Shown here: positions 12,824 to 19,873 of the stretch, in pieces
How the letters are laid out: each line of letters starts with the position of its first letter
Numbering within the stretch: the stretch's first letter is position 1
DNA from: Ktedonobacteria bacterium
GTDB taxonomy: Bacteria; Chloroflexota; Ktedonobacteria; Ktedonobacterales; JACDGC01
Assembly: GCA_027459705.1 (NCBI GenBank)
Contig: DAIDHM010000036.1
Coordinates: forward strand, 1-34,588
DNA length: 34,588 bases
Direction: 5' to 3'
The notes under the pieces: model-generated
Told to the model about the DNA's origin: nothing
Databases searched by the model: none
Seen by the model: the letters and a program-made list of their open reading frames with translations, nothing else
Position numbers and translations under genes: made by a program

Positions 12824-13777
12824 TCAGAGCACGTTTGTCGGCGCCAACCTGCCATGCAAGAAACGCATATTACGACCGAAGGTATCGAGGCCCCGCCAGA
12901 GGCCAAATGGCTCTGGGACTGGTTGTTGCGCGGCATCGTCTGCCGTGCCGCTATGCTCCACAACCGAAGCGGCTAGGGTTGTCAATGCTGAGATGTACGT
13001 GCGCATCTGGCGCACATCATCCGCAGTACCAACAGGACCATGCCCCGGCACAATGATATCGGCGCCAATCCGTTCCAGGCTCTCGACAGACCGCCGCCAG
13101 GAACCCGGATCGCCATCGCCCATCCAATGATGCATTTGCACACTCAGCAGATCGCCGGCAAAGAGAATATGCTCCTCTGGCAACAACAAGTAAGTATCAC
13201 TCTGGGTATGCCCGTTGCTCTCGATCACCTCAACATGCCGCGTCAAGCCGCGCAGATCGAGTCGGTCTCGGAAGATCAGTTCTGGCGAACGCACTTCACT
13301 GCCGGCCGCGGTCTCGACCAGCCACTGTCCGACGCGGAGCAGGTTTTCGATGCGGCGTCGTTCGCGTTCATCCACATCTGAGCGGAGTCGCTCTTCCAGC
13401 GTCGCGATCTCACCGGGCATTGTCGCCCGCCGTTGTTGCAGGCGCTCCGTAATCGTACTTGCAATCGCATCGCGCGTCGCGGTGGTCCCGATGATGGTAG
13501 CACCGTTAAATAGCGCATTACCACAGACATGATCCATATGCCAGTGGCTATTGATCACCAGTGAAGGCCAGCGGCCCGTCACAGCCCGCGCGACCGCGAT
13601 CAGGTCGCGCGCGGCGCGATGCGTCATGAACGTGTCATACACGATCGTACGGTCGCCAAGATCGATAATCCCGGCATTGCTGAAAGCCGCTCCATGCTCC
13701 GTCGCGATTGCGGCGAAGACGCCATCGGCCAGCAATTCCAGATGAAAGTGTTCGGATACCGGTTGCGGATTCTCCAT
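12824..13777 (-). CDS. Metallo-beta-lactamase-fold hydrolase
   Basis: A 317-residue binuclear metal hydrolase of the MBL superfamily. The metal motif is HWHMDH (78-83), with His190 in SNGHTQSD, Asp209 in FAGDLLS and His246 in VPGHGP, so the active site is complete. A long Arg/Glu-rich helical insert (about 105-150) sits between the first and second metal motifs. No signal peptide is seen, so it is cytoplasmic, and a beta-lactamase role is not implied; it is closest in layout to the SoxH/quinoprotein-relay group with unknown substrates. The SD before the ATG at 13777 is weak. A promoter candidate lies about 60 bases upstream. Its 3' end abuts an IS remnant, but the ORF seems intact. Confidence 0.85.
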   Translation of the reverse strand: MENPQPVSEHFHLELLADGVFAAIATEHGAAFSNAGIIDLGDRTIVYDTFMTHRAARDLIAVARAVTGRWPSLVINSHWHMDHVCGNALFNGATIIGTTATRDAIASTITERLQQRRATMPGEIATLEERLRSDVDERERRRIENLLRVGQWLVETAAGSEVRSPELIFRDRLDLRGLTRHVEVIESNGHTQSDTYLLLPEEHILFAGDLLSVQMHHWMGDGDPGSWRRSVESLERIGADIIVPGHGPVGTADDVRQMRTYISALTTLAASVVEHSGTADDAAQQPVPEPFGLWRGLDTFGRNMRFLHGRLAPTNVL

Positions 13778-13835
13778 GCACCAGGCTCAATTCCGTCGAA
13801 CGCACCAGATGGCGCCAGGCCAGTTGTGTAGATGC

Positions 13836-13863
13836 AGTATATCTCATGGCGAACCAGTGAAAA
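13836..13863 (-). promoter_or_regulatory. Candidate promoter of the MBL-fold gene
   Basis: On the minus strand TTTTCA (13863-13858), 16 bases, TATACT (13841-13836). The start would be near 13829, about 50 bases before the ATG. No terminator was recognised between the channel-like gene (stop 14051) and this promoter. Confidence 0.45.
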
Positions 13864-14050
13864 TGCTCAATAGCGTAATATTTCACACCAGTTTTTCGTT
13901 CCAACGATCTGGCTATACGCTCCTGGTCCAACCAGCGTGTGTATCCATTGACACTCTGACCCACATTCGCACCACCTGTGACCGATTATGGCGCACATCG
14001 AGCAGCACTTCGTTAATCAACACAGACTCGCCTCAGTGCCCGTCTCGTCC

Positions 14051-15304
14051 TCATTCTTCACCGGACTTCAATTGATCCATCAACAGCGCCGCCAGGATCG
14101 CCAGGAAAAAGTAGGCGATTAGCGGCTCGATGACCAGCAGAAGTTGCCCACCCAACCCTAGCGGTTTGGGAGTGTAGCCAATCGGCGTCAGATTAGCCAT
14201 TGCCAGCATAATATGTTGGCCCACCGTCGTCAGGATGCCAGGCCAGGTCAGCACTATGGGGTATGGGTTATTTGCGGAAGTAATCACCGCGTCATTGATG
14301 AGATACGCTAGGAAAAAAGCGCCCAATGAGACGAAAAAGGTGGCGACAAACCGGCCAGGTCGCACCCCAAAGCCGATCGACCACTGCATGATCCAGAGCC
14401 ACACTGCGCGTGGCCAGGTCCGTGGGTGCTGCCGCTTTTCGTGAAATTGCGCGTCGAAATATTGATAACGCAATTCGTCGCCCACTCGCCCAGCCTGACC
14501 AATCCACCCCAATTCATCGTCGCTTTTATGATTAGACCCAAACTCTTCGCTCAACATTTTGAAACGGACACTATCCGCGATCTGAGCATGAAAATGCGCT
14601 ATGCTTACTGTCTCTTTCATTTCATGGCGCCATTTCGCCAACTGTCTGGTATACTCGTCCAGGATGGTTTTCAAACTTTTGACCGTGTTCTCCACGGGGT
14701 TTTCGCGTTGGTTTTCCTCATAGAAAATAAAATTACTCTCGATGCGCAATTTATAGAGTCGCACCTCCATACGCAACAATAAGAGAGCCCGCGCCAGCCG
14801 CGTCCTGACCACCAACCGCAACCGTTCCCCCACACCTTTCATATTTTTCTGGCTCAAGGCCGCGCGCGCATTTTTATGCGTCGCGGCGACGTGCAGAGGG
14901 CCACCATAAGGTTGTGGACGAAATTGCTGAAAAAAATCTCGCCAGACATGGGTAGCGGCAATCATCAGATTGTCATCGAGTTCATTCCAGGATTCTATCA
15001 GAGTATTGAATAATTCCGCACTGGAGGGTTGCGGTACTTTCTCTTGACCGTTCGCTGGCGGCTGCACCGACTGTTGCTTTAGATACTTCCGATAGGGGCC
15101 AGGGGCCAACCCCTGATCACGGAGATCATCGATCCAACGGAGAAAATAGTCATACAGTGTTTCCAGGGTATCTGACTTGAAGGTGCGCGCATCCTGGAGA
15201 TATTCTTGAATAGCCGCGCGTACATTCCCCTCAATATCGCCAGTCTCGGTCCGACAATCATAGATCCCCTTCGGTAATGACCGGCGCCGTACAGGTGACT
15301 TCAT
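14051..15304 (-). CDS. Membrane protein with ion-channel-like C-terminal module
   Basis: A 417-residue protein not assignable by name. Residues 1-300 are soluble, helical and charged, with no recognised domain; 160-235 look like long basic helices. The last 120 residues contain QWSIGFGVRPGRF (307-319), a membrane helix (about 318-336), a re-entrant-like stretch ending in ANLTPIGYTP (370-379) and a second helix (about 386-408) preceded by GGQLLLVIEPL. This helix-pore-helix order, the TxxGY filter-like sequence and the preceding G-F-G-x-R-P-G-R motif match bacterial two-helix channel (Ion_trans_2) domains. Its start overlaps the receiver gene stop by 4 bases (ATGA), so it is translationally coupled to it and is probably the output of the signalling operon. 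The channel reading is inference; ion selectivity is unknown. Confidence 0.7.
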   Translation of the reverse strand: MKSPVRRRSLPKGIYDCRTETGDIEGNVRAAIQEYLQDARTFKSDTLETLYDYFLRWIDDLRDQGLAPGPYRKYLKQQSVQPPANGQEKVPQPSSAELFNTLIESWNELDDNLMIAATHVWRDFFQQFRPQPYGGPLHVAATHKNARAALSQKNMKGVGERLRLVVRTRLARALLLLRMEVRLYKLRIESNFIFYEENQRENPVENTVKSLKTILDEYTRQLAKWRHEMKETVSIAHFHAQIADSVRFKMLSEEFGSNHKSDDELGWIGQAGRVGDELRYQYFDAQFHEKRQHPRTWPRAVWLWIMQWSIGFGVRPGRFVATFFVSLGAFFLAYLINDAVITSANNPYPIVLTWPGILTTVGQHIMLAMANLTPIGYTPKPLGLGGQLLLVIEPLIAYFFLAILAALLMDQLKSGEE

Positions 15305-15900
15305 TCCACATCACCCTCATCCAGATGAAAATTAATGCTAGCAACAACCGCTTTACGGAGCGCTTCCCATGGGATCAGCCCATCAGAGCGCGGTCGGGTT
15401 TTCGAGATGAAATGGAATAACTCTGGTTCTGGGAGCACCGGGTGGCTGATGACTTCTTCGAGATCCAGAATTGAATAGACGATGATAGGCATGCGCGTCC
15501 CATAGGCGAAGCGATGGTTCAAGACGCCATCCAGCAACTCGCTAGTCGTCATATCTTCATCTTCGATGAGAATGTCAAAAACCGCCAACATCTTCGCTTG
15601 CCGGGCTTCGATGACTTCAAGGGCAACCTGTGCATCGCGACTGGTGCCCACCCGCCATAGCAGCAGTGTTGGCCGTCCGTCGCCGTTTTGCAGATACTGG
15701 TCATTCAGATTGAGATCCCCCACCTGAATGCGCCGTATTTGCTTGAGGCCTTGACTCTTCGCTTCGTCCTCACGTATTCGGTGGGTGTCATGAATGACCA
15801 AATCGATGCTGCGCCCACGGCAGACACGGCGAAATATGGTCGTGATTCTCTCAAACCAGGTGTGCTCATCTTCGATGACCACAGCCTCAAGAATTGGCAT
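15301..15900 (-). CDS. Atypical response-regulator receiver protein with insertion
   Basis: A 199-residue stand-alone receiver-like protein without a DNA-binding domain. Receiver landmarks are visible in order: acidic cluster IEDE (9-12) after strand 1, candidate phospho-acceptor Asp109 in LAVFDIL, Ser143 in IIVYS, and Lys167 in FISKT. The Asp-to-Ser and Asp-to-Lys distances (34 and 58) are close to CheY (30 and 52), but the acidic-cluster-to-Asp distance is about 98 instead of about 45. So about 50 residues (roughly 40-90, with IQVGDLNLNDQYL) are inserted after helix 1. The ATG at 15900 lies inside the kinase 3' end (14-base overlap) and the stop overlaps the channel-like gene start, which fixes its operon partner. 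It most likely relays phosphate or a conformational signal from the kinase to the membrane protein. Confidence 0.72.
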   Translation of the reverse strand: MPILEAVVIEDEHTWFERITTIFRRVCRGRSIDLVIHDTHRIREDEAKSQGLKQIRRIQVGDLNLNDQYLQNGDGRPTLLLWRVGTSRDAQVALEVIEARQAKMLAVFDILIEDEDMTTSELLDGVLNHRFAYGTRMPIIVYSILDLEEVISHPVLPEPELFHFISKTRPRSDGLIPWEALRKAVVASINFHLDEGDVE

Positions 15901-18900
15901 TCCGTACGTTTCCTTTCGGTAAGGTGGCGCCTTGATAGCGCGGAACTTTGAGGATGAAATCGTTATGCTCGTTATCCGGTGTCAGGTATATGACCTGCCC
16001 ACCGAGTAGTTCCGCGATCCGATGCACATGATAGAGACCAATACCAGTGCCAATGGTCGAGCGCGCGGTGCTCATCCCACGCACGCCTGGCTCAAAGATC
16101 AGCGGCCGCTCGTGGCTTTCCACCTGTGGGCCGGTGCTACGCACGGTGAAAAGGACCTCTGTCGCGGTTGACCCGGTCGTGATGAAGATATCGTCTCGCG
16201 TGCTATACTTTACTGCATTCTCCACTAACCCGAAGAGGGCGGCATTGATCAGATTCCAACGCGCTTCGCTCCCCGGAATCAACAGTTCCATATCGGGGAG
16301 CGACCAGTACACATGCCGTCCTTTCATCAAACCAGCAAATGTATCCAGACGTTGCCCCATATAGGTTACCAGATCGGCCACCTGGCGTGGTGGCGTTTTC
16401 GCATCCTCCCGCGCTATGCCCTCCTTTGAGAGATCGGTGAACCAGTAAATGATATCGTTGGTCAACAAGATCAGTTTCGCAATCTGGTCAAAGTGCTTTC
16501 TGAGTTCCGCAACAGCGGGATCACTTGAGGTGCTCAGATCCGCAAACAGGGTTTCGGTCTCTTGGACTTCCTCAAGCAGTGGGCTGATCGTTTTACCGAA
16601 GATATGCCGCATCTCCCGGGTCAATTCACCACTGGCACCCAACAACTCGTTGTTGCGCATGGCGATGACAGCGGTCTGGGCAAATAATGCCATCACCTGG
16701 TCATCGAGATCGCTGAAATTGTACGGCAAAGTCGACGTGAGCACGATCGCCCCAAAGGCTTCCTGATTCGCGCTCAGCGCTCCACCCGAAGGCCGGAGCA
16801 ATGGTACACAGAGCAGGGACCCCGTTGTCCAGAGAGGATCATGCTGGTAGCGTTCAGTCAGAGTTAGGGAGGCGATGTTGGGGATCAAGATCGACTCACC
16901 CTTCGCCAGGACATCCTCCAGGATCTTACTGGTGATAACCGGATGATCGCGATCGAATTCGCCACTCACCGGGCGTGGCGGCAAGACGGCATAGCGTTCC
17001 GCTGATGTGACGGTCAAAATAGACTGCTGTACGACCCGGTGGACCGCTTGCCCATCTTCTGGATATGCTCTTGCCAGGATCAACGTGACCTCGCCAGCAT
17101 CCAGCACCGTCAGGCGGGCGGCGGCGGTGAGGATCTGCTGCATCAGCGCGGCGGAATCCTCTTGTTGTTTACGCAAGATATCTATCTCGAATTGTCGCAA
17201 CAACTCGCGTTGTAATTCTTCGGCGCGCGCTTTCGCGGAAACAATGATATCGGAGAAGATCCAGCTCACATCACGGCCGGTATCGACATCTCGCGCCATG
17301 AAGGTATCGGGGACATCGCTCTCCAGATTCAGCACACCCACGATCTTCGCGCCTTCGAAGAGAGGCACCGCGAGTTCAGCGACCGTGGAACTATCGCCAA
17401 AAAACTCCCTGGGTCGTTCGTCGATATCGTTGAAGACATAGAGGGCCTCATCACGAAACACTTTTCCGGAGACCCCCAGGTTTATACTGAAAATGAATTC
17501 ATCGGGATTGGTGGGAGCCGAATCCGGTGGCCACGAGACGACTTCAAGTAACCGGCCATTTTCTAGATCCAGCGTACTATCGGGATGATACGCATTGATG
17601 GAGAGCATGACCGATCCATTGCGCGCGCCAGTCAATGCACAGGTCTTCGCGAGAGCTTGCTGCAAGAGCATGTTGCGATGCTCGCGTAAGGCGGGATTAC
17701 CGCCTACCGGCGCTAGCTGTAGCTGGCGAATCCGATCGATCTGTATATCCATCGCATCCGAGAGATTCGCAATCTCAATATCGCGCTTTGTCTCCGATGC
17801 CAGGTCGATCGCCACCATCGCCTGCACCACACGATCCGCCAGAAATTCAGCCCAGCGTTGATGCGCGGTAATGAAATGATCAGCCTCGCGCGACTCCAGG
17901 TCGAGCACACCCAGGATCTCTGCGCCCCGTTTCAGGGGGACGGCCAACTCGCTCTGGATGCCAGTGAAACTCATGAAATAGTCAGGGTCACGCGCTACAA
18001 ACGGGACAACCTGCGTCCTACCGGTCCGATACGCTCGCCCGGTGATACCATCTTTAGTCCACCATCGCTGTTTATTCGGATCTATGAAGTCGCCAAACGA
18101 TCCCTGGATAGCAAGGTTTGCATGGTCCACCTCCTCAGTCAACGCCAGGGAAATATAGCCAACATCGGCACGGGTCTCCGCTCTGAGGACCTGCAACGCA
18201 AAGTCAAGGACATTATTGCGCAGGTCGGTGATGTCGCACTCACCTGCATCATAGAGCGGAGCCAGAATCTGTTGCATATCAATGGCTACCTGCAGTTGCC
18301 TGGTGGTACGTTTGGCAGCAGCAGCATCATTGGCGCGTTTGATGGCATGGGTGATCAGTTTAGCAAGGCGCGACAGGTTCACCTCGTCGGTCTCATTGAA
18401 GGCACGGTGAACCGGGCTGACGAGATCGATGACCCCGATGACCACATGGTCGATCTCCAAAGGCACACAGATCTCTGAACCATGCTCATATCCCGGCCCA
18501 ACGGATCGCCAGAGGGGATCCGTGTGGGCGTCCTCAATGATGCGCGATGTATTCTGAAGAGCAACCACCCGGGTAATGCTCGACCCACCCAGGCGCCATT
18601 CATCGCGGAGCGGTTTATACGCCCCCAGCGTCGCTGTCAACTCCAGCCGATCATCTTCCGTCAAAGTATCGGCAGGAATCTCTTGCTGGGCGTTTTTCAC
18701 CAACAACAGGCCCCCAGCGACGTTCTGCTCTTCAGTGAGTTGCGCGGCAATCTGCAAGAATTGATGAAAGGTACCCTCGAGATTATCGGGATCAATGATG
18801 GCAAATACCTGGGCTTCGGCATCATTGAGTAACGATTCGATAATCTGGGCATTCGAAGCGTAGCCCTGGAGCAGGGGCATGAGCAGCTTGGCGATCTGCG

Positions 18901-19873
18901 CGATAACATTGTCGTGATGCAGCCGTTCGATATCAGCATGACTGAAGGTATTGGGCCGGTTTGATTCGATATTGAGCACGCCCAATGGCTGGCCCTCTGG
19001 GCCAAGAATCGGCATGACCAGTACGCTGCGCGTACTGAGCAAGTGAGTGATGTCACCGCCTGATGGACTGATATTCCCCACTCGCGGCCGACCGGTCTGG
19101 AAGACCGTGCCCGTCGTGCCTTCCCCTTCGCGCAGGCGGATATGAATCGCGACTGATTCGAGCGGACTCAAGGCCAGGGTCAAGAGTTGATTGGAGTGTG
19201 GGACCACCCCCATCACTTCCGCCATAATGCCCGCACTGGGGGTGAACGAGGCGACGAGGGCGTCGAGAATCCGCGTTAACGATCGTTTCGTGGCATAACC
19301 ATGATTGTCGATGCCGGTCAACGCCCGGACCTCATCCGCAGACCGCAAGATCACCTCGATATCCTCGGCCATCGCAGCCAGATCGGCCAGCTGGCGCGAC
19401 CACATCACATCATCTTCGGTAAACCACCCCGCATGGGGCGACTCCAGATTCAGCACACCATAGCAGTTCGCACCCTGAATTAATGGTACAGCTAGTTCGG
19501 ACCGGACCCCTGACGCAAGCGGTACATATGCAGGATCGCGACGCACGTCACCAACCACCTGAACCTGACGTTGGCTGATCGCGCGGCCGGTAATCCCCGT
19601 GAGATCATTGATGAGGTTCTCCGCATACATGGTATCCAGCGTGACAGCATTGCGCGTCCGGCCAGTTGTGGCATCCGCGATAATGCGCAAAAACGCCAGT
19701 TCACGTGGCGACTGAGCCACATTGACGGCAAAGGCAAGTATTTGTTGCTGGATCTCACCCGGCGGGCGGCGATCATGGATCATCGTCAATATAGCAGCCT
19801 GAAAATCGGGAAGTTTCGCCAATGTGGTTTTCAATACCGCGCGATCGCGCTGTTGCGTAAAGAAATGCACCAT
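15887..19873 (-). CDS. Soluble histidine kinase with six GAF domains
   Basis: A 1328-residue cytoplasmic sensor kinase with no membrane helix. Six GAF units are visible by their conserved strand: ELAVPL at 126-131, VLVMPIL at 284-290, EICVPL at 467-472, ELAVPL at 642-647, ELAVPL at 833-838 and LLCVPLL at 1020-1026, spaced about 160-190 residues apart. GAF domains bind small ligands or chromophores; the ligands here are unknown. Then come a HisKA-like helical pair with candidate phospho-His1090 (MRHIFGKTISPL) and a HATPase with N-box LVENAVKYS (1216-1224) and G2 box GTGIGLYH (1275-1282). The G1 box is VRSTGPQV, lacking the usual Asp. AGGAGG lies 4 bases before the ATG. It heads the three-gene operon with the receiver and the channel-like gene. 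Confidence 0.9.
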   Translation of the reverse strand: MVHFFTQQRDRAVLKTTLAKLPDFQAAILTMIHDRRPPGEIQQQILAFAVNVAQSPRELAFLRIIADATTGRTRNAVTLDTMYAENLINDLTGITGRAISQRQVQVVGDVRRDPAYVPLASGVRSELAVPLIQGANCYGVLNLESPHAGWFTEDDVMWSRQLADLAAMAEDIEVILRSADEVRALTGIDNHGYATKRSLTRILDALVASFTPSAGIMAEVMGVVPHSNQLLTLALSPLESVAIHIRLREGEGTTGTVFQTGRPRVGNISPSGGDITHLLSTRSVLVMPILGPEGQPLGVLNIESNRPNTFSHADIERLHHDNVIAQIAKLLMPLLQGYASNAQIIESLLNDAEAQVFAIIDPDNLEGTFHQFLQIAAQLTEEQNVAGGLLLVKNAQQEIPADTLTEDDRLELTATLGAYKPLRDEWRLGGSSITRVVALQNTSRIIEDAHTDPLWRSVGPGYEHGSEICVPLEIDHVVIGVIDLVSPVHRAFNETDEVNLSRLAKLITHAIKRANDAAAAKRTTRQLQVAIDMQQILAPLYDAGECDITDLRNNVLDFALQVLRAETRADVGYISLALTEEVDHANLAIQGSFGDFIDPNKQRWWTKDGITGRAYRTGRTQVVPFVARDPDYFMSFTGIQSELAVPLKRGAEILGVLDLESREADHFITAHQRWAEFLADRVVQAMVAIDLASETKRDIEIANLSDAMDIQIDRIRQLQLAPVGGNPALREHRNMLLQQALAKTCALTGARNGSVMLSINAYHPDSTLDLENGRLLEVVSWPPDSAPTNPDEFIFSINLGVSGKVFRDEALYVFNDIDERPREFFGDSSTVAELAVPLFEGAKIVGVLNLESDVPDTFMARDVDTGRDVSWIFSDIIVSAKARAEELQRELLRQFEIDILRKQQEDSAALMQQILTAAARLTVLDAGEVTLILARAYPEDGQAVHRVVQQSILTVTSAERYAVLPPRPVSGEFDRDHPVITSKILEDVLAKGESILIPNIASLTLTERYQHDPLWTTGSLLCVPLLRPSGGALSANQEAFGAIVLTSTLPYNFSDLDDQVMALFAQTAVIAMRNNELLGASGELTREMRHIFGKTISPLLEEVQETETLFADLSTSSDPAVAELRKHFDQIAKLILLTNDIIYWFTDLSKEGIAREDAKTPPRQVADLVTYMGQRLDTFAGLMKGRHVYWSLPDMELLIPGSEARWNLINAALFGLVENAVKYSTRDDIFITTGSTATEVLFTVRSTGPQVESHERPLIFEPGVRGMSTARSTIGTGIGLYHVHRIAELLGGQVIYLTPDNEHNDFILKVPRYQGATLPKGNVRNANS

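Follow-up and report, generated by a model that had tools for sequence, protein, structure and literature searches.

A Ktedonobacteria operon of a GAF-array histidine kinase, a divergent receiver and a channel-like membrane protein: a candidate two-component pathway with a membrane output

Introduction

The output of two-component systems is mostly transcription or enzymes. On contig DAIDHM010000036.1 of a Ktedonobacteria bacterium (assembly GCA_027459705.1), genes for a soluble sensor kinase, an atypical receiver and a membrane protein lie in one minus-strand block, which raises the question of what this kinase and receiver control. We present here an analysis of the trio, its relatives and its surroundings in the whole 34,588-nucleotide stretch examined (the window). 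An earlier note, made from the sequence alone, had read the trio as a phosphorelay acting on a dedicated ion channel. We give a probability of roughly 0.45 to a dedicated two-component pathway in which a phosphorelay gates a two-helix, pore-loop membrane output. If this is true, bacteria could translate a cytosolic metabolite signal at once into altered membrane permeability, permeability would be the output of a two-component system, and the trio would be a compact module for it. A literature search that left most subscription journals outside its reach found neither a kinase-receiver-channel unit nor a receiver directly gating a channel-like protein.

Gene organization and neighborhood

The genes run in the order kinase, receiver, membrane protein:

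15887-19873, minus strand: kinase gene, ORF of 1328 aa, soluble sensor histidine kinase with six GAF domains
15301-15900, minus strand: receiver gene, ORF of 199 aa, divergent single-domain receiver
14051-15304, minus strand: membrane output protein gene, ORF of 417 aa, with cytosolic helical and C-terminal two-helix pore-loop domains

The ORFs bear out the overlaps of 14 and then 4 bases on which the earlier note had based its view that the three genes are coupled. Shine-Dalgarno-like sequences stand at the kinase start (AAGGAGG) and the receiver start (AAAGGAA). The trio is flanked on one side by a metallo-beta-lactamase-fold protein, S20 (identified by eye) and RNase J, and on the other by a divergent HtrA-like protease and a NUDIX regulator; these neighbors are housekeeping genes unrelated to it. 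Pfam recognized no DNA-binding or enzymatic output domain in the trio, in agreement with what had been claimed, and found no pentapeptide repeats in any of the trio proteins scanned.

The same gene order was found at three further loci, L006, L007 and L008, the last with its kinase cut by the contig end, while at a fourth, L009, the contig edge leaves only the last part of the membrane gene. The receiver and membrane proteins of L006, L007 and L008 are 22-37% identical to those of the window. Because the order is kept at three diverged loci, the trio is best described as a conserved operon, and to judge from these sequences its order has outlived considerable divergence; the comparison of conservation rests on few loci. 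At L006, the trio is preceded on the same strand, some 60 bases upstream, by a LuxR/NarL-type response regulator and a GAF kinase (13458-15711), possibly a transcriptional branch. The proposal that the system lacks transcriptional output holds for the trio itself; the arrangement at L006 qualifies it.

Kinase

Three catalytic features of the kinase were placed by alignment:

16604-16606, minus strand: codon of His1090 in the dimerization/His region, kept in 4/4 aligned kinases
16217-16219, minus strand: codon of N-box Asn1219 of the kinase ATPase, from the alignment of four kinases
16034-16051, minus strand: G2 box of the kinase ATPase, from the alignment of four kinases

Pfam found six GAF stretches and an HATPase_c domain (49.4 bits; cut-off 26.4) in the window kinase. 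No membrane-length hydrophobic helix is evident in it, the top hydrophobic windows falling inside GAF domains, so that the earlier description of a soluble six-GAF kinase stands. Relatives with complete kinases have four and five detected GAF stretches. Pairwise identity among the kinases of the four loci is 27-36%, and HATPase_c exceeds the cut-off in every one of them. The phosphoacceptor histidine is invariant in all four aligned sequences, within the motif [RKN]H[DI] of the dimerization helix; the N-box and G2 box are likewise retained throughout, and the G1 box (DxGxG) is without its Asp in all four. Loci with different outputs were also sought through the kinase core. Apart from the trio kinases and a paralogue in the same genome (L027), matches scored far lower, and the four neighborhoods that were read contained ordinary kinases and were set aside.

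Receiver

The 199-aa protein has no Pfam match and does not reach Response_reg; neither a PDB sequence search nor a whole-genome Response_reg search recognized it. Its receiver character emerges from profile comparison. Against 37 Response_reg domains of the same genome the receiver profile scored 25-36, where 60 column shuffles in each of four settings (four free receivers) gave a maximum of 17.7. In the alignment, Asp109 falls on the phosphoacceptor position of Response_reg and Ser143 on its conserved Thr/Ser. The positions concerned are the following:

15871-15873, minus strand: Glu10, invariant in four loci
15574-15576, minus strand: phosphoacceptor Asp109, invariant in four loci
15472-15474, minus strand: Ser143, conserved Ser/Thr at strand 4
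15400-15402, minus strand: Lys167, clear in the window and uncertain in relatives

AlphaFold (pLDDT 68) predicts an alpha/beta fold in which Glu10, Asp109 and Ser143 sit at strand ends and Lys167 immediately follows the last strand. A fold search returned generic Rossmann-like proteins as nearest, with the first response regulator, Rcp1, at rank 48. An insertion at about residues 30-77 separates helix 1 from REC strand 2, and pairwise identity among the four loci is 22-31%. With moderate confidence we regard this protein as a divergent receiver, much as the earlier note's term "atypical receiver" implied.

Membrane protein

Hydrophobicity and profile alignment divide the membrane protein as follows:

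14375-15304, minus strand: cytosolic helical domain, residues 1-310, candidate receiver docking/gating domain
14273-14359, minus strand: first transmembrane helix, residues 316-344, with a GFG/GYG-RP turn before it
14171-14245, minus strand: pore-loop-like segment, residues 354-378, whose NLTPIGYT falls where K+ channels have TTVGYGD
14066-14155, minus strand: second transmembrane helix, residues 384-413, from hydrophobicity and profile alignment

Strongly hydrophobic segments cover residues 316-344 and 381-415, with a weaker, shorter one between them. The cytosolic domain has no Pfam match at the cut-off and carries a conserved FG...ELGW...LRYQYFD block in relatives. Pairwise identity among the four loci is 23-35%.

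The predicted two-helix domain is clearly related, by sequence, to its counterpart in pentapeptide-repeat membrane proteins (hhalign probability 97.7, E=1.7e-12) and appears more weakly related to K+ channel pores (score 33.2, P=7e-5). The latter score was reached in 0/60 shuffles, the highest of which gave 24.7, and in the alignment the loop matches TTVGYGD with the filter positions in register. Pfam Ion_trans_2 matches stayed below threshold (13.4 bits in the window and 11.7 at L007, against 22.5), and sequence searches of solved structures returned KirBac3.1 alone, weakly (E=5 and E=0.19). The AlphaFold model, built on an alignment of two sequences only, has helices at residues 316-344, 354-372 and 384-416 and a helical cytosolic domain, at a mean pLDDT of 46 that cannot decide on a pore-helix fold. 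The two-helix membrane protein of the earlier note is therefore present in channel-like form; the pore-helix fold it predicted draws weak support from the K+ pore profile match and none either way from the model. A channel-like fold is plausible.

The TxxGY selectivity filter on which the channel reading had been built fared worse. In the window it is NLTPIGYT (residues 371-378). Where the window has TPIGYT at the filter position, the other copies have TALGSN, TSLGSS, QGFNNN, QGSNSN and VGQSNS; the GY dipeptide is gone from every relative, and Asn371 alone is invariant in the pore segment. K+ selectivity is thus unsupported, since the filter is not conserved, and the K+ channel interpretation of TxxGY was rejected as a family feature.

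Distribution

In a profile search at E<=1e-8, the membrane protein family occurs in 4/47 genomes of the order, two of which carry two copies. At a looser E<=0.001, eleven genomes of the order match, and the additional ones that were read are pentapeptide-repeat proteins. In a sample of 400 genomes from the phylum, a search at E<=1e-6 gave no match outside the order, and searches of viral contigs, plasmids and phages gave zero occurrences.

The second copy in the window's own genome (L027; contig 55, 2325-7937) consists of a 1379-aa GAF kinase and, after it, a 489-aa membrane protein; a free receiver gene is absent. Its kinase has lost the phosphoacceptor histidine and has no HATPase_c match, in an intact frame. 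Loss of the kinase histidine and ATPase where there is no free receiver is what would be expected if the parts form one pathway. The membrane proteins of L027 (6468-7937) and L008 (1667-3247) each have an N-terminal extension of about 150 residues with an alternating strand-helix look. A receiver-like nature of these extensions, suspected by eye, was rejected, as their profile scores did not on the whole rise above those of shuffles (in the best of six tests 1/60 shuffles reached the score; in each of the remaining five, 17 or more did).

Proposed mechanism and alternatives

A phosphorelay to a channel-like membrane protein is the simplest reading of the trio. In it, the GAF-array kinase would sense one or more cytosolic small molecules and autophosphorylate on His1090, from which the co-encoded receiver would take over the phosphoryl group on its Asp109. 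By docking on the membrane protein's cytosolic helical domain, the receiver would then open or close an oligomeric two-helix pore-loop domain, so changing ion permeability. At the level of sequence, the conserved operon, the histidine, the N and G2 boxes, an aspartate in receiver-like register and the kinship to pore loops speak for this pathway; phosphotransfer, receiver docking, the oligomer and conduction are steps that we infer. Several observations count against it: the unconserved filter, the sub-threshold Ion_trans_2 match, the poor model of the membrane protein, the low rank of the first response regulator in the receiver's fold search, the G1-box Asp missing from all four kinases, and the small number of loci. 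The more specific form, a two-helix pore-loop channel with an unusual, non-K+ filter that is gated directly by the multi-GAF kinase and its dedicated receiver, is a tentative proposal that may well prove wrong. A precedent for direct action exists in the single-domain regulator EpsW, which acts directly on the membrane protein EpsZ (PMC12802240).

Under the main rival reading, the membrane protein would be no channel. Its two-helix domain would descend from a channel fold and act today as an oligomeric membrane anchor or signaling scaffold, with the receiver controlling clustering or another partner through the cytosolic domain. The decay of the selectivity filter in all relatives, where Asn371 is the sole invariant residue of the pore segment, fits such a role, as do the size of the cytosolic domain with its conserved ELGW and ELRYQYFD blocks and the HGRGF motif that related pentapeptide-repeat proteins have at the filter position. 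Against it, the helix-loop-helix layout and the GYG-RP turn before helix 1 are kept across 23-38% identity, a sign that the pore-like fold as a whole may be under selection, and non-selective channels do not require a GYG. We consider the anchor or scaffold possible, if somewhat doubtful. It is unlikely that the three genes merely share a transcript and that the receiver acts on a transcription factor elsewhere while the kinase receives feedback from the membrane protein. That idea draws on the NarL/LuxR-type regulator and kinase immediately upstream on the same strand in L006, and on the more than 80 other receiver domains of the genome; however, no such regulator adjoins the trio in the window or L007, nor is there one at L027, and the trio order is kept where all else differs.

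A conflict device for cell suicide or anti-phage defense, in which the GAF array would sense an infection nucleotide and membrane depolarization would follow through the two-helix protein, seems unlikely as well. Its sporadic occurrence (4/47 genomes, with two copies in two of them) and its membrane effector would suit such a role, and two-helix pore-forming effectors have been described in conflict systems (SLATT, PMC7159879). Yet PADLOC returned nothing more than the generic kinase ATPase and a weak LeoC match (E=0.022) on the membrane protein, and the window offers no defense neighborhood; the neighbors are housekeeping genes, and the plasmids and phages searched are without the trio.

Comparison with known systems

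The candidate phosphorelay pathway has close counterparts in two-component systems whose single-domain (CheY-like) response regulator has a membrane protein as its direct target, such as DifE-EpsW-EpsZ of Myxococcus xanthus (PMC12802240). This system likewise pairs a histidine kinase with a stand-alone receiver and regulates a membrane protein directly at the post-translational level, as would the window system. EpsZ is a phosphoglycosyl transferase (PMC12802240), whereas the window membrane protein is of a pore-loop type; unlike in the EpsW system, the trio is encoded in one operon, with a receiver that has diverged too far for Pfam to recognize. With two-helix K+ channels (Ion_trans_2, PF07885; KcsA/KirBac type) the membrane protein has in common two predicted helices around a pore-loop-like segment. 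It differs from them in lacking a TVGYG filter, in falling below the Pfam cut-off and in its large N-terminal helical domain. SLATT proteins provide a small membrane output with proposed pore formation on a cytosolic signal (PMC7159879); the window unit differs in being driven by a kinase and receiver, and the Pfam scan shows no SLATT relation.

The pentapeptide-repeat proteins (L028-L036), found in the same taxonomic order, have a homologous C-terminal two-helix domain that includes the GYG-RP turn. In these proteins pentapeptide repeats replace the helical domain and an FHGRGF-like motif replaces NLTxxG, and no kinase-receiver operon was seen at the loci read. A channel-like domain with a decayed filter thus seems to have been reused, its cytosolic partner being a set of pentapeptide repeats in one case and the helical domain in the other.

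A contig scan with strict peptide patterns recovered solely the L007 locus again (as L037, JAJPIU010000132.1). That record is titled "Proteobacteria bacterium isolate Centralia_MAG_377", and its membrane protein is identical to that of contig G094:C230, which has an equal length and is apparently the same contig. G094:C230 is placed in the window's order, within Chloroflexota; the GenBank label may be wrong.
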